Shown here piece after piece: positions 16,154 to 27,755 of a DNA stretch of 64,000 nt. This DNA comes from Bacteroidales bacterium (GTDB taxonomy: Bacteria > Bacteroidota > Bacteroidia > Bacteroidales > JAADJA01): positions 1 through 64,000 of the forward strand of contig JAIOZL010000004.1 in assembly GCA_021740645.1 (NCBI GenBank). The letters are read 5' to 3'. Every line of letters starts with the position of its first letter. Within the stretch, counting starts at the first letter, position 1. Made by a program: the position numbers and the translations under genes. The notes under the pieces were generated by a model. It saw nothing but the letters and a program-made list of their open reading frames with translations, was not told where the DNA came from and searched no databases.

Positions 16154-16326
16154 CAGTCAGCATAAACGGAGTAATAACTCAGTTTCAAATTTTTTACGCT
16201 TTATGTTTTCAATTGGAACAGCGGTGGTAAAAAGGGATATCAAGGAAAGTGGTTAAAAGTTAGCTTTTAATTAAAGCTTTTTCATAATTAAAACTTTCTA
16301 ATTGACTTTTGTTATCCCACCTTAAA

Positions 16327-18099
16327 ATGAAAAAACAAGTAAAAAAATTAGGAGAACTTTCCGCAACAGCAATATGCGGTAACGATATAAGTTCATCGGT
16401 CCTTTATGTATCCGCTCTTTCAATAATTTATGCAGGTAAATACGCCTGGATCACATTATTGATAGTCGCCTTTATCTTATTTCTTTTCAGAAAAATATAT
16501 GCTGAAGTTGTATGTGCATTACCATTAAACGGGGGTGCTTACAATGCCTTACTTAATACAACAAGTAAATCATTGGCTTCTTATGCTGCCACATTAACTA
16601 TTTTATCCTATATGGCAACCTCTGTTATTTCTGCTAATGAGGCCATGAGGTATCTTCATGGGTTATGGGTTTCAGAGCCAATAATACTTTCAACCGTCCT
16701 TTTATTGATCTTTTTTGCTTTGCTGGCCATTCTCGGAATCCGTGAATCCTCAAAAGTAGCCATAGGAATATTTATTTTCCATTTAACTTCAATGGTCCTT
16801 TTGATTTCGTTTGTTTGCTATTACCTGCTTTCATCAGGTTTTACCACATTATATAAAAACTGGGACTTACCTGTTGAGGGAAGTATCAGCAATGCGATAT
16901 TCCTTGGATTTGCTGCCTCAATGTTAGGTATTTCCGGCTTTGAAAGTTCAGCAAATTATGTAGAAGAGCAAGCCAGGGGGGTTTTTGTAAAAACATTAAG
17001 GAATATGTGGGTTATTGTTAGTATCATAAACCCGTTAATGGCCTTTCTTGCAATTTCAATAATTGCAATCCCTGAAATACAAGAATTACACAGCGATCCC
17101 TTATTATCTCAAATGGGGAAAATTAGCGGAGGCAACTGGTTGAGTTGGATTATTTCAATTGATGCTGTAATTGTTCTGAGCGGGGCAGTACTGACCTCAT
17201 TTGTAGGGGTCACCGGTTTGCTCGAAAGGATGGCCCTTGACCGCATTCTCCCGCCCTTTTTCCTTAAAAAAAATAAAAGAAACAGTTCCCACCGAATCAT
17301 TATCCTGTTTCTACTGATCAGTATATCTGTCCTGCTTATTACGCAGGGAAAAGTAGAAGTTCTGGCCGGTGTGTATACCATTTCTTTTCTTGCAGTCATG
17401 GGCTTGTTTGCCATCGGAAATATTCTTTTAAAAGTTAAAAGGAGTAAATTGCCCCGACAATATAAGGCAAAAAAAATATCGGTATTCGTTGCTTTAATTG
17501 GTGTAATTATCGCACTAATCGGCAACATTACAATGGAGCCTTCAGATCCTGAAATGCCATCAAACTTTACAATATTCCTTGAGTATTTTATTCCGGGAAT
17601 AATTTTTGTCACCATCATGCTAAACCGCTTAGATATATTACAGTTTCTTTTAAGCCTCCTCCGTACAGTTTTTGATCCGATTCGTGAGCTATTTCTTAAG
17701 TTGCATGTTACAATCAATCGAACCATCGACAAAATAAGCTCACAGGAATTTATATTTTTTACCAGAGGGGATAACATCAACAACCTGAACAAAGTAATTC
17801 TTTATATATTAAAAAATGAGAGTACGAAAAAACTTAGATTAGTCACCGTTATTGAAAAAGATAAAACCGATGAAAAGAAATTATTGATCAATCTTAAAAA
17901 TGATGTTGATTTTCTTAATAAAGAATACCCTGAAATTAAAATAGAGTTTGAAGTGCTAACAGGAAAATTCTCCCCGGAATTGGTCCATTCACTCTCAAAA
18001 AAATGGGGTATCCCAATAAATTTTATGTTCATTGGTTCACCTGGAGATCATTTCCCCTATCGGATCGAAGAATTAGGGGGGGTTAGATTGATAATATAA
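16327..18099 (+). CDS. APC-superfamily amino-acid permease with C-terminal soluble domain
   Basis: This protein of about 590 residues has an APC/LeuT-fold permease core of about 12 TM helices (10-450) that opens LGELSATAICGNDISSSVLY. GFAASMLGISGFESSANY in TM6 is the usual substrate-site region. The C-terminal 120 residues are cytosolic and resemble a universal-stress-protein-like domain (RLVTVIE ... NFMFIGSPGDHF). I placed the start at the ATG 16327 because the upstream in-frame TTG adds only six poorly conserved residues. It lies 275 bp before the aminomutase gene and may supply that pathway with amino acid; this is inferred from position only. Confidence 0.82.
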   Translation: MKKQVKKLGELSATAICGNDISSSVLYVSALSIIYAGKYAWITLLIVAFILFLFRKIYAEVVCALPLNGGAYNALLNTTSKSLASYAATLTILSYMATSVISANEAMRYLHGLWVSEPIILSTVLLLIFFALLAILGIRESSKVAIGIFIFHLTSMVLLISFVCYYLLSSGFTTLYKNWDLPVEGSISNAIFLGFAASMLGISGFESSANYVEEQARGVFVKTLRNMWVIVSIINPLMAFLAISIIAIPEIQELHSDPLLSQMGKISGGNWLSWIISIDAVIVLSGAVLTSFVGVTGLLERMALDRILPPFFLKKNKRNSSHRIIILFLLISISVLLITQGKVEVLAGVYTISFLAVMGLFAIGNILLKVKRSKLPRQYKAKKISVFVALIGVIIALIGNITMEPSDPEMPSNFTIFLEYFIPGIIFVTIMLNRLDILQFLLSLLRTVFDPIRELFLKLHVTINRTIDKISSQEFIFFTRGDNINNLNKVILYILKNESTKKLRLVTVIEKDKTDEKKLLINLKNDVDFLNKEYPEIKIEFEVLTGKFSPELVHSLSKKWGIPINFMFIGSPGDHFPYRIEELGGVRLII

Positions 18100-18373
18100 A
18101 CCCGTTTAAAAGAAACCAATTAGATTAAAAATTGCATTGGTTTACACCTTTTTGTATCATATATAGGTATTGTTTAAGAAGTAATAATTAAGAAATATTT
18201 TTCCCCCGCCAGGGATTCAAATTTATTATCTTTACATTTAATAAACGCTTTATTTATAAAGATTTAAATATTCATGTATTTTTTTACTGTTAAAAAATAT
18301 GCAAACATTTCAATTCTTGCTTTACTGAATAAATAAATGCTTTATTTTGCATTATAAAATAACCTATAATTTT

Positions 18374-19636
18374 ATGAATGACAATAATTTACAACAGGAT
18401 ATAGAACCTCCGCTTATAGAGGACTTGTCAACAATAGAAGTTGTTTTAGGAACTTCTGATATTGAAGAAAAACCTTTTGGAAAAACTGAAATACCCTTTT
18501 CAGATTTCACGGTAATCAATCCCGAAACTGCCAAATTTCGAGCGAAATACTTTCCTGAGTCTACCGACAGGCAATGGAACAGTTGGCGGTGGCAGATTCA
18601 AAATAGCTATACTAATTTCAAAAAACTATCCGAAATATTAGACATCAGTAATATTGATGATTTCGATTTTTTAACCAAATCGAGAAAGCTGCCATTGAGG
18701 ATCACACCGTATTATGCAAGTTTATTAGAAAAAAAGCATAGTAATAACGCATTGGCAAGATCTGTAGTTCCTTCCAGGCTTGAATTAGTTATTTCACCCG
18801 GTGAGGAAGCTGATCCCTTACATGAAGATGCGATGTGTCCTGTTCCAAACCTAATACATCGCTATCCTGACCGCGTGCTAATGCTATCCACTGGTTTCTG
18901 CTCAGTATATTGCAGATATTGTACCCGTTCGCATATGGTGAACAAAGACAAAAAGCACTATGGGGTTAAAGCCTGGGAAAAATCAATTGATTATATCAAA
19001 AGCAACCCAGAGGTCAGGGACATCGTTATTTCAGGAGGTGACCCGATGACAATGCCCGACAAACATATCGAGTTTTTATTATCTTCCCTTCGGGCTATTC
19101 CTCATGTTGAAATTATCAGAATAGGATCAAAAGTACCCATGGTAATGCCTCAGCGAATTACCAATACTTTTGTTAAAATGCTAAAAAAGTACCACCCCTT
19201 GTTCATGAGCATCCATTGCACACATCCTGATGAAATTACACCTGAAGTAATAGAAGCGGCTAAACGCCTTGCCGATGCTGGAATAGTTTTGGGCAGCCAA
19301 ACAGTTTTGTTGCAGGGAATAAATGATAGTGTGGAGATCATGAAGGATCTTATGCACAAGCTTTTAAAAATGAGGATCAAGCCTTACTACATCTATCAAT
19401 GTGACCCTATCCCCGGCTCCTCACATTTCAGGACTCCAATTTCAAAAGGATTAGAGATTATACAAGGTTTACGCGGCCATACGAGTGGCTATGCCATTCC
19501 TCATTATGTAATTGATGCACCTGGTGGTGGTGGCAAAATTCCTCTTTTACCCGAATATTACCAGGGACGTGAAGGTGATTATGTAGTCATGAAAAATTTC
19601 GAAGGACGTATATATAAATATTATGACCCCGTTTAA
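18374..19636 (+). CDS. Lysine 2,3-aminomutase-like radical SAM enzyme (KamA family)
   Basis: This 420-residue enzyme would use SAM, a [4Fe-4S] cluster and PLP to move an amino group from C2 to C3 of an amino acid. The radical SAM motif CSVYCRYC is near residue 176 and the PLP lysine is in DAPGGGGK (Lys388). Both aspartates that bind the epsilon-amino group of lysine in clostridial lysine aminomutase (Asp293, Asp330) have counterparts in YQCDPIPG and VIDAPGG, which favours lysine over glutamate. Only about 32 residues follow the PLP lysine, so the Cys-containing zinc tail of the clostridial enzyme is absent, and the N-terminus is about 50 residues longer. ATG 18374 was chosen over an upstream TTG. 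It is the first gene of a tight operon ending at 23810. Confidence 0.88.
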   Translation: MNDNNLQQDIEPPLIEDLSTIEVVLGTSDIEEKPFGKTEIPFSDFTVINPETAKFRAKYFPESTDRQWNSWRWQIQNSYTNFKKLSEILDISNIDDFDFLTKSRKLPLRITPYYASLLEKKHSNNALARSVVPSRLELVISPGEEADPLHEDAMCPVPNLIHRYPDRVLMLSTGFCSVYCRYCTRSHMVNKDKKHYGVKAWEKSIDYIKSNPEVRDIVISGGDPMTMPDKHIEFLLSSLRAIPHVEIIRIGSKVPMVMPQRITNTFVKMLKKYHPLFMSIHCTHPDEITPEVIEAAKRLADAGIVLGSQTVLLQGINDSVEIMKDLMHKLLKMRIKPYYIYQCDPIPGSSHFRTPISKGLEIIQGLRGHTSGYAIPHYVIDAPGGGGKIPLLPEYYQGREGDYVVMKNFEGRIYKYYDPV

Positions 19637-21384
19637 TGAATATTTTTAAAATCAGGAAGATCACCGATTCATACCTTCCATCAAATAAGCATGCCCTTGA
19701 TCAGGTCTTCGCCATAATGAGTATTCATTTCCCATCTCTAAAGGAAGAGAAAATAAATGAAGTGCTCGAACAGATGAAAAATCCATTAAAATATAAGTTT
19801 TCATCCAGTTTATTTGTGGCAGAAGACGGGCGATCAAATGTAAAAGGTTTTGCCTTAATGTTTTATATGCCTGACAGGAATTTCTGCTACCTCGATTATA
19901 TTGCGGTAAAACCCGGCAGAATTTCTTCAGGAGTTGGAGGTGCCATTTATGAAAGGCTAAGGGAAGAGGCGCAGATGCTCAAATCCATTGGGATTTTTAT
20001 GGAATGTTTACCGGATGACGAAAATCTTTGTAAAGAAAAAAGTGATTTAAAACAAAACAGGGCCAGGCTGGCTTTTTATGAACGTTATGGGGCGCGGCCA
20101 CTCACCGGAACTAAATATGAAACTTTAGTGGATCCAAACGATGATTGTCCACCCTATCTTGTTTTTGATGATTTAGGAAATGACATCAGGTTGCCGGCCG
20201 TCCTGACAAAAAAAATTATCAAAACCATCCTTGAAAGGAAATATCCTGATTACTGTCCGGAGAATTATGTTAAAATGGTTATTGGATCGGTAAAGGATGA
20301 CCCCGTTCAATTAAGGGAATTTAAATACCTCGTAAAAGAAAGGCCAATCGATAAAAAAGATGCGGTTAAAAATTTAATCCCCCTGATCATCAATGATAAA
20401 CATGATATTCATCACATACAAGAAAGGGGCTATGTGGAATCACCTGTGCGTATACATAGTATCTTAAAAGAACTCACAAAACTGGAAGCTTTTAAGATCA
20501 AACCATCAAGGGGATTTCCTGACAAACATATTACCGATGTGCACAATCCTAAATATTTTAACTATTTCAAAAATGTTTGCGATAAATTCCCTGAAGGAAA
20601 GTCTATTTATCCATATGTATTTCCGGTACGTAATGCCACCAGGCCACCTCACGATTTATCTGTCCTTGCCGGTTATTATTGTATCGATACTTTTACCCCT
20701 TTAAATAAAAATGCATTTTTAGCAGCACATTCTGGAGTTAACTGCGCACTTACGGGCGCAGAGTTGATTCTTGAGGGTTATCATTCTGCATACGCCCTGG
20801 TGAGGCCTCCAGGACATCATGCTGAAAGAGATGTTTTTGGTGGATTTTGTTATTTCAACAACGCATCCATTGCCGCCAACTTCCTGTCAAAATACGGGAA
20901 AGTTTGTATTCTGGATATTGACTATCATCATGGGAATGGGCACCAGCAAATATTTTATTCCCGTGAAGATGTTTTTACGGTTTCAATTCATGGTAATCCA
21001 TCATTTGCCTATCCCTATTTTACCGGCTTTGCCGACGAAAAAGGAGAAGGAAAAGGATCCGGTTATAATTTAAATTACCCCTTAAAAGAGGCTCTTTCTG
21101 GTGAAGAATATCTTGGTGTACTAAAAAAAGCAATCAGAAATATAGTGGCCTTCAAACCTGACTATTTAATCATTAGCCTCGGCTTCGATATTGCCAAGGG
21201 TGACCCCACTGGAACCTGGTCGCTAAAAGCTCCTGATTTTAAAAATAACGGAATGGAATTGGGCAGGTTGAATTTTCCCATTCTATTTATTCAGGAGGGT
21301 GGTTATAAAAACAGGACTTTAGGCATCAGTGCCAGAAATTTTTTTGAAGGATTTTTATTAACAAGAACAGCAAAGCGAAAATGA
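19636..21384 (+). CDS. GNAT acetyltransferase fused to HDAC-type deacetylase
   Basis: This 582-residue protein joins two opposing activities. Residues 1-235 are a GNAT acetyltransferase with the acetyl-CoA loop in YIAVKPGRISSGVGG and the later ARLAFYERYGARP. Residues 240-582 are a zinc-dependent histone-deacetylase/acetylpolyamine-amidohydrolase domain. Its parts are intact: RPPGHHAERD (about 390, catalytic His pair), DIDYHHGNGH (about 427, zinc Asp and His), SLGFDIAKGDP (about 516, third zinc ligand) and QEGGY (about 552, catalytic Tyr). Such deacetylases act on acetylated amines at the end of an aliphatic chain. N-epsilon-acetyl-beta-lysine or a polyamine-like derivative would suit the neighbouring aminomutase. 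The gene abuts the aminomutase (stop and start share one base). Confidence 0.88.
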   Translation: MNIFKIRKITDSYLPSNKHALDQVFAIMSIHFPSLKEEKINEVLEQMKNPLKYKFSSSLFVAEDGRSNVKGFALMFYMPDRNFCYLDYIAVKPGRISSGVGGAIYERLREEAQMLKSIGIFMECLPDDENLCKEKSDLKQNRARLAFYERYGARPLTGTKYETLVDPNDDCPPYLVFDDLGNDIRLPAVLTKKIIKTILERKYPDYCPENYVKMVIGSVKDDPVQLREFKYLVKERPIDKKDAVKNLIPLIINDKHDIHHIQERGYVESPVRIHSILKELTKLEAFKIKPSRGFPDKHITDVHNPKYFNYFKNVCDKFPEGKSIYPYVFPVRNATRPPHDLSVLAGYYCIDTFTPLNKNAFLAAHSGVNCALTGAELILEGYHSAYALVRPPGHHAERDVFGGFCYFNNASIAANFLSKYGKVCILDIDYHHGNGHQQIFYSREDVFTVSIHGNPSFAYPYFTGFADEKGEGKGSGYNLNYPLKEALSGEEYLGVLKKAIRNIVAFKPDYLIISLGFDIAKGDPTGTWSLKAPDFKNNGMELGRLNFPILFIQEGGYKNRTLGISARNFFEGFLLTRTAKRK

Positions 21385-22358
21385 AAATCGGACTGACTTA
21401 CGATCTTAGAAGCAATTATCTGAAAGAAGGCTATTCACTCGAAGAAACTGCCGAGTTTGATAAAGAAAGTACAATAGAAGGTATCGAAAAAGCTATTCGG
21501 GCTGCTGGCCATAATACGATGCGAATAGGTAACGCGAAAAACCTTATGGAACAATTGCTGTCTGGCAATAAGTGGGATATGGTTTTCAATATTGCTGAAG
21601 GCCTTTATGGTGAAGGCCGTGAATCCCTGGTGCCTGCTTTGCTCGACTACTTTAAAATTCCTTATGTTTTTTCGGGTCCGGTTACTTTGGGAGTATCTTT
21701 AAACAAAGCATTTGCCAAACAAATTGTGAGAGACTGTGGTGTAAATACACCAGCATTTCATGTTGTTTCACAATATTCTGACATGGATGACGTAAATTTG
21801 CAATTCCCGCTTTTTGCAAAACCAATCTCCGAAGGAACAGGTAAGGGGATCGATTCCTCCTCCAGAATTAACACTAAAGAAGAGTTGAAATTAGTTTGTA
21901 CAAACTTGCTTGATAAATTTAACCAACCGGTATTGGTTGAAGAATATTTACCCGGAAGGGAATTTACTGTCGGCGTGCTGGGCACTGGTGAGGATTCCTG
22001 GATTCCCGGAGCCATGGAAATAGTGTATAAAGAACCACAGGATAACATTTATTCTTATGAGAATAAAGAAAATTATGAGTCCGTTGTTGATTATATACCG
22101 ATAAAAGGCGGAACACTAGAAGCTTGTAAAAAAGTAGCTTTGCATTCCTGGAAGGCTCTGAATTGCTGCGACGGTGGCAGAGTTGACGTAAAGATCGACC
22201 GGAATGGAAAGATGAGTTTTATTGAAGTTAACCCCTTGGCTGGATTAAACCCGATAAGCTCTGACTTACCCATACTCTGCCGGTTAAATGGAATTTCTTA
22301 CCAGGAGCTGATGAATAAGATATTGGATTCAGCGATAAAAAGAAACTTTAAGGCATGA
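21381..22358 (+). CDS. ATP-grasp ligase, D-Ala-D-Ala-ligase-like (first of two)
   Basis: This 325-residue enzyme has the D-Ala-D-Ala ligase fold: an N-terminal GLTYDLRS segment, a central FAKPISEGTGKG phosphate-binding loop, VEEYLPGREFTVGVL, and the metal site DVKIDRNGKMSFIEVNP. True Ddl enzymes carry GSSVG at the loop where this protein has GTGKG. The Ddl catalytic serine is therefore missing and a different amine acceptor is likely. It would activate a carboxylate as acyl-phosphate and join it to an amine. It overlaps the fusion gene by 4 bp (ATGA) and is followed by a second ATP-grasp gene in the same way. Confidence 0.85.
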   Translation: MKIGLTYDLRSNYLKEGYSLEETAEFDKESTIEGIEKAIRAAGHNTMRIGNAKNLMEQLLSGNKWDMVFNIAEGLYGEGRESLVPALLDYFKIPYVFSGPVTLGVSLNKAFAKQIVRDCGVNTPAFHVVSQYSDMDDVNLQFPLFAKPISEGTGKGIDSSSRINTKEELKLVCTNLLDKFNQPVLVEEYLPGREFTVGVLGTGEDSWIPGAMEIVYKEPQDNIYSYENKENYESVVDYIPIKGGTLEACKKVALHSWKALNCCDGGRVDVKIDRNGKMSFIEVNPLAGLNPISSDLPILCRLNGISYQELMNKILDSAIKRNFKA

Positions 22359-23320
22359 GAAAAAAAGTGATCATCCTCCATAATCAAATAATTAATAATA
22401 CACCCGATGAGCTTGATGTTTTAGCGCAACGCGATTTAATATGTGAGGCTTGTATCAATTTAGGATATGAAGTAAAAAGTCTTGATGTAGGTGACGATAT
22501 TCAAAGTGACTTAAACCGGGTGCTGACGGAAAAAGCGGATATTGTTTTTAATCTGGTGGAAGCCACCTGGGGAAAAGGAGAACTGATCTATTTTGCACCG
22601 GCAATTTTAAATGCTATGAAAATCCCTTACAGCGGAGTGCCGCTGGATGCTTTGTTTATAACAACGAACAAAGTTTTGGCAAAAAAAATAATGCGCTACA
22701 ACGATTTACCCACTGCCGATTTTTACCCGATTGATGAAACAAATAAACTAAACTCGCAAAAAACCTATATTGCTAAACCCATTTGGGAAGAAGCCTCAGT
22801 GGGTATCACTTCAGACTATATTTTTAGTTTATCCGACACTGAAAAATTAAAAACTATAAAAAAACTATCGGCTTCTCATTATTTTATTGAAGAATTTATT
22901 GAAGGGCGGGAGTTTAATATCAGTATCCTTGCAGGTGAAAAAGGTCCTGAGGTTTTATCTCCGGCTGAAATGATGTTCTCCTCTTATTTCAACGATAAGC
23001 CAAAAATAGTAGGTTATAAAGCCAAATGGGATGAAACCAGCCTTGAATACCAACATACCCAAAGATCATTCGGGACGCTGGAAAAAAACCTTACACTGAA
23101 AAAAAATCTTGCAGATATCTGCACAAGGGCCTGGTATGCTTTTAATCTTCATGGCTATGTACGAATCGATTTCAGGGTGGATAAAAACGACAACGTGTTT
23201 ATTTTAGAGATTAATGGAAATCCTTGTATAGCGCCAGATAGTGGATTTGTAGCAGCAATTAATGAAGCCGGGTATTCGAATGAGGAAATGGTTACGCGAA
23301 TTTTAGCCGATTTAAATTAA
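22355..23320 (+). CDS. ATP-grasp ligase, D-Ala-D-Ala-ligase-like (second of two)
   Basis: This 321-residue ATP-grasp protein follows the previous one with a 4-bp overlap but is not a close copy. Its loop reads IAKPIWEEASVGI, keeping the SVG part of the Ddl loop. FIEEFIEGREFNISIL and RIDFRVDKNDNVFILEING supply the nucleotide and metal sites. Two differing ligases side by side suggest two successive couplings, or a heteromeric enzyme, in making a small peptide-like product. Neither is likely to be the housekeeping cell-wall Ddl. Confidence 0.83.
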   Translation: MRKKVIILHNQIINNTPDELDVLAQRDLICEACINLGYEVKSLDVGDDIQSDLNRVLTEKADIVFNLVEATWGKGELIYFAPAILNAMKIPYSGVPLDALFITTNKVLAKKIMRYNDLPTADFYPIDETNKLNSQKTYIAKPIWEEASVGITSDYIFSLSDTEKLKTIKKLSASHYFIEEFIEGREFNISILAGEKGPEVLSPAEMMFSSYFNDKPKIVGYKAKWDETSLEYQHTQRSFGTLEKNLTLKKNLADICTRAWYAFNLHGYVRIDFRVDKNDNVFILEINGNPCIAPDSGFVAAINEAGYSNEEMVTRILADLN

Positions 23321-23324
23321 TGCC

Positions 23325-23810
23325 ATGCAGTTCAGAAGTAGATTAAAAAAAACTGACCAGGATTTCATTAAGGAAATATTAGATTCGTCTGGCTTTTTTT
23401 ATGACTATGAAATTGAAATAGCCATTGAATTGCTACAAGAAAACCTGGCGAAAGGAGCTGAAAAAAGTGGATACTTTTTTACTATTGCAGAAATTGATCA
23501 TATACCGGTGGGTTATACATGCTATGGTAAAACACCAGGAACTATTGATAGTTTTGACTTATATTGGATAGCAGTTCATCAGGAGTATAGAGGAAAAGGA
23601 ATCGGGAACCGGTTAATGGACCTGGCAGTAAATGATATAGCCAAAAGACAGGGTCAAAATATTTGGATAGAAACTTCTTCACGTGAACTTTACAAACCAA
23701 CACACCTTTTTTATATTAAATATGGATGTGAGAAAATAGCCGAACTCCCTGACTTTTATGGGCCAGGGGATCATAAAATTATTTTCAGGAAAAAAATATC
23801 TTCAACATAA
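23325..23810 (+). CDS. GNAT family N-acetyltransferase
   Basis: This 161-residue single-domain GNAT enzyme has the acetyl-CoA motif IAVHQEYRGKGIGNRL (about 85-100) and closing strands YIKYGCEKIAELPDFYG. That closing resembles acetyltransferases acting on small amines or amino acids. It begins 4 bp after the second ATP-grasp gene and ends the aminomutase operon. With the GNAT half of the fusion protein it gives the operon two acetyltransferases, presumably for different amines or steps. Confidence 0.83.
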   Translation: MQFRSRLKKTDQDFIKEILDSSGFFYDYEIEIAIELLQENLAKGAEKSGYFFTIAEIDHIPVGYTCYGKTPGTIDSFDLYWIAVHQEYRGKGIGNRLMDLAVNDIAKRQGQNIWIETSSRELYKPTHLFYIKYGCEKIAELPDFYGPGDHKIIFRKKISST

Positions 23811-23948: not shown

Positions 23949-23969
23949 ACGCCAAAATGATTGGATCAG

Positions 23970-26900
23970 ATGAATAAAATTTTAATGGGCATTTGTTTAA
24001 TACTCGCAATAAATTTGCATGCCCAGGAACTACAGAATGAAAATGTTTATTTTTCATACAGTGATTCAATTGCATTAAGCCAACTTCCGCTGCTCACCTT
24101 ACCTGACAGTTACAAAGGAAAATCGGTTTTCGATCTTCCATACAGTCTCGACAATAGTCAAACACCTTATTTCAGAAGTATATTCGGACAAGATGGATGG
24201 TCATGTGGCCAGGCTTCAAGCATTGGTTATAATTTTACCTACGAAATCAACAGACGTCGAAACTTGCCATCCGACACATCCATTAACCAATATCCTTCAC
24301 ATTTTGCATTCAATTTTTTCAATTATGGAGAAAATGCGGTAGGTGTCAATTACATCCACACATTTGATCTTCTGAAAGAATTTGGGACACCCAATGTGGC
24401 CACTTATGGAGGAATGAGTCTGGGTCTGACGCACTGGATGAATGGTTATGAAAATTATTATTCAGCAATGTTAAACAAGATGGATGAAGTTTATGGAATT
24501 AGTGTGGCTGATGAAGAAGGTATATTGACTCTGAAAAACTGGTTGAATGATCATTTAGACGGATCAGAATACGGTGGGCTGGCTAATTTCTATACCGATC
24601 TGGCAGGATTGAATTCCCTGCCTGCAGGGACGCCCGAAGAAGGTAAACGGGTAATTACCGCTTTCGGACAATATAATGGCCATTCAATGACCATTGTCGG
24701 GTGGAATGATTCTATCCGATGGGATTATAATAACGATAGTATCTATACCAATGACCTTGATATTAACGGTGACAATGTGGTCAATGTGAAAGATTGGGAG
24801 ATTGGCGGGGTAAAAATTGCGAACAGCCATAGTGTAAATTGGGCCGATAGCGGTTTTAGCTATGTGATGTACAAAGTACTGGCTGAAGAAAAATCCAATG
24901 GAGGTATTTGGAACAAGATGGTTCATGTTATTGATGTGAAGCCAGAATACAGTCCAATGGTCACCTATAAAGTAAAATTGAAATACAATTCACGCGAAAG
25001 AATTAAAATAGTTGCCGGGATATCCCCCGACACCAATGACCTCTTGCCTTTATATAAATTGGAATTCAGTGGATTTAATTACCAGGGCGGAGATCACTAC
25101 ATGCAGGGAAATGACACTTTGGAAGATCACAAAACAATAACTTTCGGACTGGATGTTACACCCCTTTTGTCCTTTATTGAACCTGGAATGCCAGCTAAGT
25201 TCTTTTTAGAAGTGCATGAATATGACCCGATGGAGCTCCAATCAGGAATGCTTATGGAATACAGTATGTTTGATTATCAAAACGGTGGCATCGAAGTACC
25301 CTCCAATGTATCAGATTTAATATTGAATAATAATTCCATAACAATCGCCTCTGTTGTTCACCCGGTAAATTTCGATAAAGTGGATATCGAAACCGATGAC
25401 CTTGGAGCCTTTGTTCCCGGACAAGCTTATAATATGCAACTTCAAGCCTTTGGAGGAACGGAGCCTTATGACTGGAAAATAAAAACCCCATATTCCATCA
25501 ATGAATCCGCATGCGATTACCCTGACATTCAGGGTGAGAAAATTTTTAGCGGGTCGGTAAGTCAGGGATTTCTTGTTAAAAAAATTAGTTTTGCATTTCC
25601 GTTTTTTGGCAAAACATATGATACCCTTACCTTAAATGTGGATGGATTTATCAATTTTACCGCCACTTCTTTTCCTATACCTTATCAGCGCAGCGATATG
25701 GGGCTATTCAAATATGAGCCTATGATTGCTCCTTTTCTGAACAAACAACTCGTATTTTCTGGGAGTCAAAATGGAATATGGTACGAAGGAAGTGATGACC
25801 TGGCATCCTTTAGATGGAAAGCCCTGGTGCAAAATGAAGGTGGAGATTATCCGGTGGATTTTTCAGTTATTATTTATGCGGATGGGGAAATAGAGTTCTA
25901 TTACCTTGAAAACCCCAGCGGTGAGTTGATCCGACGGGTGACAGGGATATCAAATGGGGATGGAACAAATTACCAAACCTCTGACTTCATGAAAGAGTTT
26001 CCTGATTTTGGTTCAACCAAAATTTCACTTTCCCCAAAAAACTTCCTTACTCAACTTGAAGTAGATAATTCTGGTTTACTTCATGCTGATGATATTAGCG
26101 GTAATAAAATTTATGATATTGTTGTGGAAGTTAAGGATATGAATGAAATTAAAACAACCAAAACTTTCCAATTATCTGAAAGTATTGTTTTTGATTATGT
26201 GGTCAATTCAGGGGATGACCATCGAATTGATTATGGTGAAACTGCTCATCTCGATTTTGAAATAACCAATATTGGGGATAACCCGGTAAACAACCTGATT
26301 GCCCAAATAAATATCGATGATACCTACATCACTCTCATCGACGATATCCAAACTTTCACAACCATAAATCCCGGGGAAACTGTTCTAATTGCTGACGCTT
26401 TTTCTTTTAATGTGGATCCGTATATTCCGGATAATTACATTCTCAATTTTGATATTCTTTTTAATTGGGGCAGCGATGTGGCAGAAGGGACATTGAACTT
26501 TGAAGCATATTCGCCCATATTTGAAGCTATTGCCCCCATTGTTTATGACAACGAAAACGGGAAACTTGATCCCGGAGAATCAGCAGGATTGATCTTTTCT
26601 GTAAATAATTTTGGACATGCATTAGCCAATAATGTAACTGCTGAAATAACCATCAATACTCCTTACATTTCTGTGTATGGTTCTGAAAGCCTTACATTGG
26701 GTGATATTCCGGCAGGAGGAACAGCAAGTGATACCTTGTTTGTTACAGTATCAGAATTTGCCCCACAGGGCTATCAATTCGAGATCATATTTTCTATACA
26801 TGCTGACCCTGGATTTGTGATAAATAATTCATTTTATTTATTGATAGGAAGATTTCCCCTTCTGATCATTGATTTGGATCCACAATTGCTAAATGGCCCG

Positions 26901-27755
26901 GAAATATCTTTTTTGCTTGATGACCTTGAGGTTTATTTTGAGTATATAAATTATATCCCCGAAAACCTCGACAATTATCAAAACCTGATGATCTTTCTGG
27001 GAAGAAAGTTTTTTAATTATACTTTAAGCCCAGGAGAAGGGGAGCAATTAGCAGAATTCCTGGATGATAACCGGAATATATTTATGGAAGGTGGCGTAAC
27101 CTGGCTTGAGGATCCCCAGACCAGTGTGCATTCCATGTTTAGTTTTGAAGTGGAACCCATCAATTGGAACTATCATGATTCCATCTTTGGTATCTCCGGT
27201 ACTTTTACTGAAAACATGAATTTTGACTATAACGGAAACCTGGGATATTATAATCATATCCTGGTTCCTACAGGTAATGCGTTTAAGATTTTCAACACAT
27301 CGAATCCTGAGCATGGGTGTATGGTAGCTTATGAAAATGAGAAATATAAAACCATTGGCTCAAACATCGACTTTATAGGACTAACAGGAGACACGATTCC
27401 TTCCTCCAAAAAATACCTGTTGTCCTGTATTTTGGAGTTTTTCAACCTGAATTATGTTTACACAGATGATAATTCTTTGGCTGAGAATAGCGGTATTCCA
27501 GCTATTTCATCATACCCTAACCCATTTTCCGACAACCTTCATATAGTGGTTAATTTAAATTCTACCGAAGACTATAAACTGGTATTGTACACTATTCATG
27601 GAAAAGCCCTCAGAGAAATTGGTTCTGGGGAGAAAGTAAATGAGCTTAAACATGGGCATGATATCAACTTATCTGATCTTAATCCGGGCGTATATATGTG
27701 CGGTTTGATTACACCTTCCAAAAAAGCTTTTGTAAAGATTGTGAAATCTTACTAA
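23970..27755 (+). CDS. T9SS-secreted papain-like (C1) protease, multidomain
   Basis: This protein of about 1261 residues has a signal peptide (ending NLHAQ). Its C1-type peptidase domain (about 60-310) has the catalytic Cys in DGWSCGQASS, His in GHSMTIVGW and Asn in IANSHSVNWADSGFSY. A dockerin-like calcium loop DINGDNVVNVKDWE is inserted between the His and Asn. Beta-sandwich domains follow, including two CARDB-like repeats with Y.ENGKLDPGESA and GDDHRIDYGETA. A Rossmann-like segment lies around 960-1130. A type A T9SS sorting domain begins at YPNPFSDNLH and ends LNPGVYMCGLI...IVKSY. It should be released or anchored at the cell surface and may digest peptides. A direct link to the flanking biosynthetic genes is unproven. 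Confidence 0.83.
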   Translation: MNKILMGICLILAINLHAQELQNENVYFSYSDSIALSQLPLLTLPDSYKGKSVFDLPYSLDNSQTPYFRSIFGQDGWSCGQASSIGYNFTYEINRRRNLPSDTSINQYPSHFAFNFFNYGENAVGVNYIHTFDLLKEFGTPNVATYGGMSLGLTHWMNGYENYYSAMLNKMDEVYGISVADEEGILTLKNWLNDHLDGSEYGGLANFYTDLAGLNSLPAGTPEEGKRVITAFGQYNGHSMTIVGWNDSIRWDYNNDSIYTNDLDINGDNVVNVKDWEIGGVKIANSHSVNWADSGFSYVMYKVLAEEKSNGGIWNKMVHVIDVKPEYSPMVTYKVKLKYNSRERIKIVAGISPDTNDLLPLYKLEFSGFNYQGGDHYMQGNDTLEDHKTITFGLDVTPLLSFIEPGMPAKFFLEVHEYDPMELQSGMLMEYSMFDYQNGGIEVPSNVSDLILNNNSITIASVVHPVNFDKVDIETDDLGAFVPGQAYNMQLQAFGGTEPYDWKIKTPYSINESACDYPDIQGEKIFSGSVSQGFLVKKISFAFPFFGKTYDTLTLNVDGFINFTATSFPIPYQRSDMGLFKYEPMIAPFLNKQLVFSGSQNGIWYEGSDDLASFRWKALVQNEGGDYPVDFSVIIYADGEIEFYYLENPSGELIRRVTGISNGDGTNYQTSDFMKEFPDFGSTKISLSPKNFLTQLEVDNSGLLHADDISGNKIYDIVVEVKDMNEIKTTKTFQLSESIVFDYVVNSGDDHRIDYGETAHLDFEITNIGDNPVNNLIAQINIDDTYITLIDDIQTFTTINPGETVLIADAFSFNVDPYIPDNYILNFDILFNWGSDVAEGTLNFEAYSPIFEAIAPIVYDNENGKLDPGESAGLIFSVNNFGHALANNVTAEITINTPYISVYGSESLTLGDIPAGGTASDTLFVTVSEFAPQGYQFEIIFSIHADPGFVINNSFYLLIGRFPLLIIDLDPQLLNGPEISFLLDDLEVYFEYINYIPENLDNYQNLMIFLGRKFFNYTLSPGEGEQLAEFLDDNRNIFMEGGVTWLEDPQTSVHSMFSFEVEPINWNYHDSIFGISGTFTENMNFDYNGNLGYYNHILVPTGNAFKIFNTSNPEHGCMVAYENEKYKTIGSNIDFIGLTGDTIPSSKKYLLSCILEFFNLNYVYTDDNSLAENSGIPAISSYPNPFSDNLHIVVNLNSTEDYKLVLYTIHGKALREIGSGEKVNELKHGHDINLSDLNPGVYMCGLITPSKKAFVKIVKSY

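Follow-up and report, generated by a model that had tools for sequence, protein, structure and literature searches.

The stretch analysed here (the window) comprises the first 64,000 nucleotides of contig JAIOZL010000004.1 from a Bacteroidales bacterium (GenBank assembly GCA_021740645.1), whose genome amounts to 5.06 Mb on 83 contigs, with the window on contig 33. It carries a block of five genes (Table 1), which encode a lysine 2,3-aminomutase-like enzyme of the radical S-adenosylmethionine (SAM)/pyridoxal phosphate (PLP) type (KamA), a fusion of a GNAT acetyltransferase with a deacetylase (FUS), two ATP-grasp ligases resembling D-alanine--D-alanine ligase (Ddl), termed AG1 and AG2, and a second GNAT acetyltransferase (GN2). 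The block is a real functional module, and we propose below that it may make a beta-lysine-containing peptide. The five gene calls of an initial annotation of this DNA are borne out by open reading frames (ORFs) on the forward strand and by matches in Pfam and NCBIfam searches, from which the domain names are taken. That annotation had described the genes as joined by 4-base overlaps or gaps of a few bases. Two 4-base overlaps and one 4-base gap are indeed present, but the remaining junction, between KamA and FUS, is a 1-base overlap.

Table 1. Genes of the block and the upstream permease gene (positions in the window)
Gene	Position	Strand	Product and domains
KamA	18374..19636	+	Lysine 2,3-aminomutase-like radical SAM/PLP enzyme, 420 aa; Radical_SAM and LAM_C
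FUS	19636..21384	+	GNAT (about 1-180) and acetylpolyamine-amidohydrolase-type deacetylase (about 250-575), 582 aa; Hist_deacetyl 247.5 bits
AG1	21381..22358	+	Ddl-like ATP-grasp ligase 1, 325 aa; Dala_Dala_lig_C 94.4 bits
AG2	22355..23320	+	Ddl-like ATP-grasp ligase 2, 321 aa; Dala_Dala_lig_C 68.0 bits
GN2	23325..23810	+	Second GNAT acetyltransferase, 161 aa; Acetyltransf_7 47.2 bits
APC-family amino-acid permease, upstream	16309..18099	+	AA_permease_2 195.9 bits; possible partner, outside the conserved core

KamA has an alternative TTG start at 18347. As a possible sign of a recent import of the operon, base composition was compared: the G+C content is 0.383 for the operon and 0.376 for the window. 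A Bacteroidota-type promoter upstream of KamA was considered and rejected: the consensus has no match there and three in the whole window, compared with 5.95 expected by chance. Directly 3' of the operon, a large protein with a sorting domain of the type IX secretion system (T9SS) is encoded at 23961-27755, from which we judge the organism to be Bacteroidota-like.

Enzyme classes of the five proteins

The enzyme classes of the five proteins are well supported. Among the aminomutase models, KamA scores highest with the lysine model TIGR03820 (452.3 bits), below the cut-off of 525.4. The match ends at position 361 of 417, and the C-terminal tail of lysine 2,3-aminomutase (LAM) is missing from the protein. 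KamA matches PDB entry 2a5h at 4e-126, and residues were mapped onto this structure via an ungapped alignment. In an alignment of 71 KamA rows from linked loci, which excludes partial and low-scoring ORFs and includes two duplicate pairs, C176, C180, C183, R185, D344, D381 and K388 are kept in all rows. The cysteines are those of the iron-sulfur cluster, and the other four are the counterparts of R134, D293, D330 and K337 of LAM, of which we take R134 to contact the carboxylate of the substrate, D293 and D330 its epsilon-amine, and K337 to be the PLP residue. A literature search on the roles of the lysine-binding residues of LAM found no paper.

TIGR03820 also scores higher than the models for glutamate and arginine mutases, both for the KamA of the window and for all eight further KamAs scored. 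Two of the eight exceed the cut-off (locus L146 with 593.0 and locus L153 with 558.7 bits) and six fall below it. The KamA gene of L146 clusters with both ligases and GN2, that of L153 adjoins AG1 only. A cysteine motif in the tail was found in L146 alone among 72 KamA ORFs longer than 350 aa. From these sequence data we strongly infer that KamA converts L-lysine to beta-lysine, and a preference for lysine is well supported.

In a scan of the whole FUS protein, the GNAT half reaches 26.9 bits with a cut-off of 27. Scanned alone, residues 1-190 reach 29.5 bits and lie above the GNAT cut-off. The isolated GNAT half passes at least one GNAT family cut-off in nine of ten FUS proteins, including that of the window; the protein of L071 fails. 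An AlphaFold model of FUS (pLDDT 84, pTM 0.61) has an order of strands and helices in the N-terminal part that we read as GNAT. For the deacetylase half, PDB entry 9gkz is the best match in sequence (2.9e-76) as well as in fold (TMt 0.90). In 83 FUS rows from linked loci (duplicates included, partial and low-scoring ORFs excluded), H394, H395, D427, H431, D518 and Y557 are invariant and D429 is kept in 82. Judged from sequence and predicted structure, the class nearest to the C-terminal half is the small-molecule acetylpolyamine amidohydrolase (APAH) type. A protein-type histone deacetylase (HDAC) was rejected, APAHs being closer in both respects. Hence, of the GNAT and HDAC chemistry originally assigned to one chain, the fusion stands, but the "HDAC" has its closest counterparts among deacetylases of small molecules.

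AG1 matches Ddl chains by sequence. The predicted model of AG2 (pLDDT 91) has the Ddl fold at about 20% identity, with a TMq of 0.75 to 1iow. The R-x-D and E-x-N positions, which we assign to the catalytic arginine and the magnesium ligands of Ddl, are kept at 95% or more in both AG1 (73 rows) and AG2 (74 rows). Among the best 25 families listed for each protein, TIGR01205 (cut-off 245.65) gives 126.8 bits for AG1 and 94.4 bits for AG2, and a true Ddl with 311.5 bits is encoded elsewhere in the genome. We therefore rejected AG1 and AG2 as true Ddl enzymes, both because their scores lie under the family cut-offs and because of this separate Ddl. The earlier description as two unlike Ddl-type ligases holds for the fold and the ATP-grasp class, but not for membership in the Ddl family proper. 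A related ligase was observed at L023:7906-11063 (genome G345). It is 31% identical to AG1 and fused to a peptidase of family S58 (DmpA/BapA-type), and an APAH-like deacetylase gene follows. This locus possibly encodes an enzyme pair that makes and breaks beta-peptides.

Linkage, spread and gene fusions

Conservation of the block in other genomes had been set as a test beforehand, and the block withstood it. When named genomes were scanned once with residues 1-387 of the fusion as query, 109 relatives were obtained, of which the best 80 were kept (L030-L109). All five genes are found together in 50 of these 80 loci, spanning at most 7.6 kb and lying on one strand in 49 of the 50. The block is thus more than a chance neighbourhood, and the unusual gene combination noted at first sight is confirmed. 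Twelve of the remaining loci are partial, several of them reaching a contig end, and 18 contain FUS alone. At E≤1e-25, AG1 was found elsewhere in 17 of the 20 genomes searched (the 18 with FUS alone and two partial ones), corresponding to 15 of the 18. KamA is clustered with at least one ligase in all 14 regions fetched from FUS-alone genomes; a fifteenth (G574) is not included in this count. Most genomes with a split operon therefore still retain the set, and these distant KamA-ligase clusters together with the linkage counts rule out a chance neighbourhood. The gene linkage is well supported.

Record titles assign the bacterial loci to Bacteroidetes, Proteobacteria (delta, gamma and alpha), Chloroflexi, Planctomycetota, Acidobacteria, Calditrichaeota, KSB1, Nitrospinota, Bacillota, Synergistaceae and Ignavibacteria. 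With one Thermoplasmatota archaeon, about eleven phyla are represented overall. Three isolates carry the fusion, namely Ancylomarina sp. 16SWW S1-10-2 (L041), Desulfocarbo indianensis (L080) and Desulfatitalea alkaliphila (L097), and at least two of them (L041, L080) have all five genes alongside. Among the gene orders are KamA-FUS-AG1-AG2-GN2, KamA-AG1-AG2-FUS-GN2 and KamA-AG1-AG2-GN2-FUS, as well as arrangements in which GN2 is fused to FUS. Among 395 genomes of the phylum, FUS has four matches at E≤1e-40, with the full fusion in G000 and G385 only and the deacetylase half in the others. Two genomes, the window's own included, remain at E≤1e-100. This patchy spread suggests horizontal transfer. 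AG1 was found in four of the 395 genomes at E≤1e-60 (G000, G385, G362 and G322). The order of G385 (164 genomes) has four FUS matches, three of them full fusions; these three genomes contain all five genes, with FUS in fourth place.

Gene fusions connect the members of the set further. L145, a second contig of the Thermoplasmatota bin to which L105 belongs, encodes a single protein of 696 aa that combines KamA and AG1. On the same contig AG2 is fused to a GNAT in a frame of 622 aa, the first hundred or so residues of which probably lie upstream of the true start. L145 and L105 are one bin, and binning errors are possible. A fusion of GN2 to the C-terminal end of FUS was identified with Pfam in L097 and by labels of hidden Markov models (HMMs) only in L090, L095, L099 and L108. 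Correlations of pairwise identities, calculated from 39 rows with all five genes after removal of duplicates and uncorrected for shared ancestry, are highest for KamA-AG1 (0.94), followed by KamA-AG2 (0.86) and AG2-GN2 (0.82); KamA and the ligases have diverged jointly. As the KamA-AG1 and AG2-GNAT fusions suggest, AG1 may act on what the aminomutase produces, and GN2 may acetylate the product or the substrate of AG2.

Proposed pathway, osmotic context and alternatives

We propose that the block encodes a route, independent of the ribosome and of nonribosomal peptide synthetases, to a short acetylated beta-lysine-containing peptide acting as compatible solute. From the sequences at hand, we consider this reading to fall just short of an even chance. 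KamA would supply beta-lysine from L-lysine. AG1 would activate a carboxylate with ATP and join beta-lysine to a first partner, and AG2 would add a second partner or extend the product. GN2 may acetylate an amine of the product, probably capping its charge as in other lysine-derived osmolytes. FUS could both set and remove an acetyl group, because its single chain combines acetyltransferase and small-amine deacetylase domains; this would tune the charge or recycle the solute upon a drop in salt. The most economical role for such a product is that of a solute, a beta-lysine peptide kept neutral by an acetyl cap that can be taken off again, and most likely it would help cells under salt stress. 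The identity of the peptide, the order of steps and the osmolyte role are what we infer, and we hold the beta-lysine peptide more firmly than the osmolyte function.

A role in osmoregulation is suggested by some of the neighbouring genes. Genes for MscS-type channels occur near the block in L045, L049, L057, L061, L069 (two), L086 and L105. An HMM built from five of the MscS proteins of the window genome gave eight matches inside the block or within 2 kb of it (327,595 flanking bases from 98 loci), compared with 0.71 expected from the density of the 11 matches in the window genome, and none in the 547,998 bases beyond (Fisher p = 4e-4). Seven of the genes lie outside the block and one inside a split block, with none in 538-548 kb beyond. 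Leaving out the match in L049, whose channel gene sits between AG2 and FUS, and the duplicate loci, the comparison is 7 versus 0 (p = 0.001). In L069, where MscS genes lie on both sides of the block, a prokaryotic cation-chloride cotransporter is encoded beside it (L069:12260-14419). APC permeases occur near the block in the window, L049, L094, L107 and L145. The upstream permease was rejected as a fixed part of the block: of the 98 loci scanned, one has a close homologue (L049, between AG2 and FUS). An MscS-like gene is described upstream of the kamA-ablB osmolyte operon of Methanoperedens (PMC11337218). The review PMC1224877 names two uncharged amino acid or peptide osmolytes, both charge-masked and one of them an acetylated glutamine dipeptide.

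Several results weigh against this proposal. The MscS test was run after the pattern had been noticed, four channels having been seen first. Only 7 of the 98 loci have such a channel nearby, 91 have none, and the 11 MscS matches of the window genome all lie on contigs other than that of the window. Scans of the window and of 19 loci revealed no riboswitch next to the block. Control by a Na+ or cyclic di-AMP riboswitch, as suggested by PMC9337991, was rejected, as the only element detected in these regions was a group II intron in L057, at a distance of about 7.5 kb from the block. AG1 was not found at E≤1e-25 in 3 of the 18 FUS-alone genomes (G565, G569 and G573). In 16 genomes of the same genus, several of them incomplete, FUS was not found, deacetylase halves or nothing being matched. 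Furthermore, all but three of the 80 named records (77) come from metagenome binning, so that single taxon labels may be wrong. The position of FUS itself is also affected. Its correlations with the other four genes are lower (0.57-0.73), and it was not found at E≤1e-20 in G322 (99% complete), although a diverged AG1-AG2-GNAT-KamA cluster is present there. G362 (87% complete) has KamA-AG1, with neither AG2 nor GN2 on that short contig, and lacks FUS. From the G322 and G362 clusters and the correlations, the core consists of KamA, AG1, AG2 and the GNAT, with FUS as a frequent but separable member; its weaker co-variation and its absence from the matches in G322 indicate that the FUS step may be optional. 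The beta-lysine peptide carrying an acetyl group that can be removed, as originally suggested, survives the tests of enzyme class and linkage, but with the fusion outside the core.

An alternative is that the solute is plain N-epsilon-acetyl-beta-lysine, made by KamA and one GNAT and degraded by FUS, while the ligases serve another peptide that shares the operon. AblA/AblB chemistry is an established osmolyte route (PMC9337991, PMC11337218), and the window genome has one KamA-family gene over the cut-off. We nevertheless regard this as unlikely. The AblB model TIGR03827 has no match in the genome and is not among the NCBIfam families of GN2 or FUS, for which reason the plain AblA-AblB pathway was rejected; moreover, KamA is fused to AG1 in L145 and best correlated with it, and 61 of the 80 named loci hold at least one ligase. 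Beta-lysine is also known from peptide antibiotics, and the patchy spread of FUS would suit a secreted bioactive beta-lysine peptide, either antibiotic-like or a signalling metabolite. However, a specialised metabolite would hardly come with one and the same simple gene set in many phyla, MscS channel genes are over-represented close to the block, and no exporter was recognised among the recurring neighbour clusters listed, which were inspected by eye and not scanned with a family library. A secreted product is accordingly given a low probability.

The APAH-type deacetylase and the nearby APC permeases would fit amine or lysine utilisation, in which ligation and acetylation protect lysine-derived amines and the deacetylase frees them for catabolism. 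Such a protecting-group logic is treated for other ligase operons in PMC2922099. No dehydrogenase, aminotransferase or CoA-transferase was recognised among the neighbour clusters listed (again by eye, with no scan), and we consider this role improbable. Highly improbable is the ligation of beta-lysine to a protein or a wall precursor, comparable to beta-lysylation of elongation factor P (EF-P) or to peptidoglycan bridges. Wall precursors are substrates of Ddl-fold ligases and EpmB is related to KamA, but the EpmB model TIGR03821 scores far below the lysine model on KamA (257.1 versus 452.3 bits), and the deacetylase of FUS is nearest to small-molecule enzymes.

If the preferred reading of an acetylated beta-lysine peptide solute is true, a peptide branch would be added to the small list of beta-amino-acid osmolytes, and genes resembling D-Ala ligase, histone deacetylase and KamA would receive a joint meaning. 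The GNAT-deacetylase fusion would gain a function, and the predicted product would rise with salt. A wider formulation is a new class of compatible solutes, acetyl-switchable beta-lysine di- or tripeptides that a pair of ATP-grasp ligases makes in bacteria of about ten phyla and perhaps also in an archaeon, the GNAT-deacetylase being the on/off switch of charge. This is possible, and we offer it tentatively.

Further genes recur around the block. A CxxCxxCC protein (PF03692, confirmed in L096 and L101) is encoded between KamA and AG1 in L092, L094, L095, L096 and L101, and also in or near the block in L090 and L100; it is a putative metal chelator that perhaps serves the iron-sulfur enzyme. 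A MarC-family membrane protein is encoded inside the block at L061:4564-5169 and L071:4111-4722. A cluster of long sensor-like proteins, named by eye, recurs in ten loci (including L041, L060, L063, L067, L070 and L083), mostly 3-7 kb from FUS among the distances listed. Adjoining the block of G502, at L029:10507-14251, is a gene cluster whose products, labelled by reading, resemble a RimK-type ATP-grasp enzyme and a pair made up of an N-formylglutamate-amidohydrolase-like protein and a larger protein.

Comparison with known systems

No paper on the five-gene set was found in the open literature searched, in agreement with the initial annotation, which knew of no described pathway with these genes. 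Five passages of PMC11532494, on bacterial deacylases, contain no GNAT-deacetylase fusion like FUS. APAHs (9gkz, 6phr and 3q9b) have the same fold and catalytic residues as the C-terminal half of FUS, whereas in FUS this half shares one polypeptide with a GNAT and belongs to a beta-lysine gene set. Similarly, AG1 and AG2 have the fold and the C-terminal domain in common with D-alanine--D-alanine ligases, but score below the Ddl cut-offs, with a low identity of AG2 in the structure match.

The N-epsilon-acetyl-beta-lysine pathway of AblA/KamA and AblB, of which PMC3543383 describes an ordinary ablA-ablB pair, shares with the block a lysine 2,3-aminomutase-type enzyme, a GNAT and, in some loci, an MscS-type neighbour. 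The block differs by its two additional ATP-grasp ligases and deacetylase and by a KamA without the C-terminal tail.

The osmoprotectant N-acetylglutaminylglutamine amide (NAGGN) is produced by a system that comprises a GNAT/ATP-grasp fusion, an amidotransferase and an M42 peptidase. No NAGGN-named model is among the NCBIfam matches listed for the five proteins (the best 25 for AG1 and AG2), and their Pfam matches include neither amidotransferase nor M42 peptidase; the genome beyond the block was not searched for this system. The block uses an aminomutase product, two Ddl-like ligases and an APAH-type deacetylase rather than an amidotransferase and an M42 peptidase. Both systems would nevertheless work alike, in that an acetylated peptide solute is built by a GNAT together with an ATP-grasp enzyme, and a hydrolase gene accompanies theirs.

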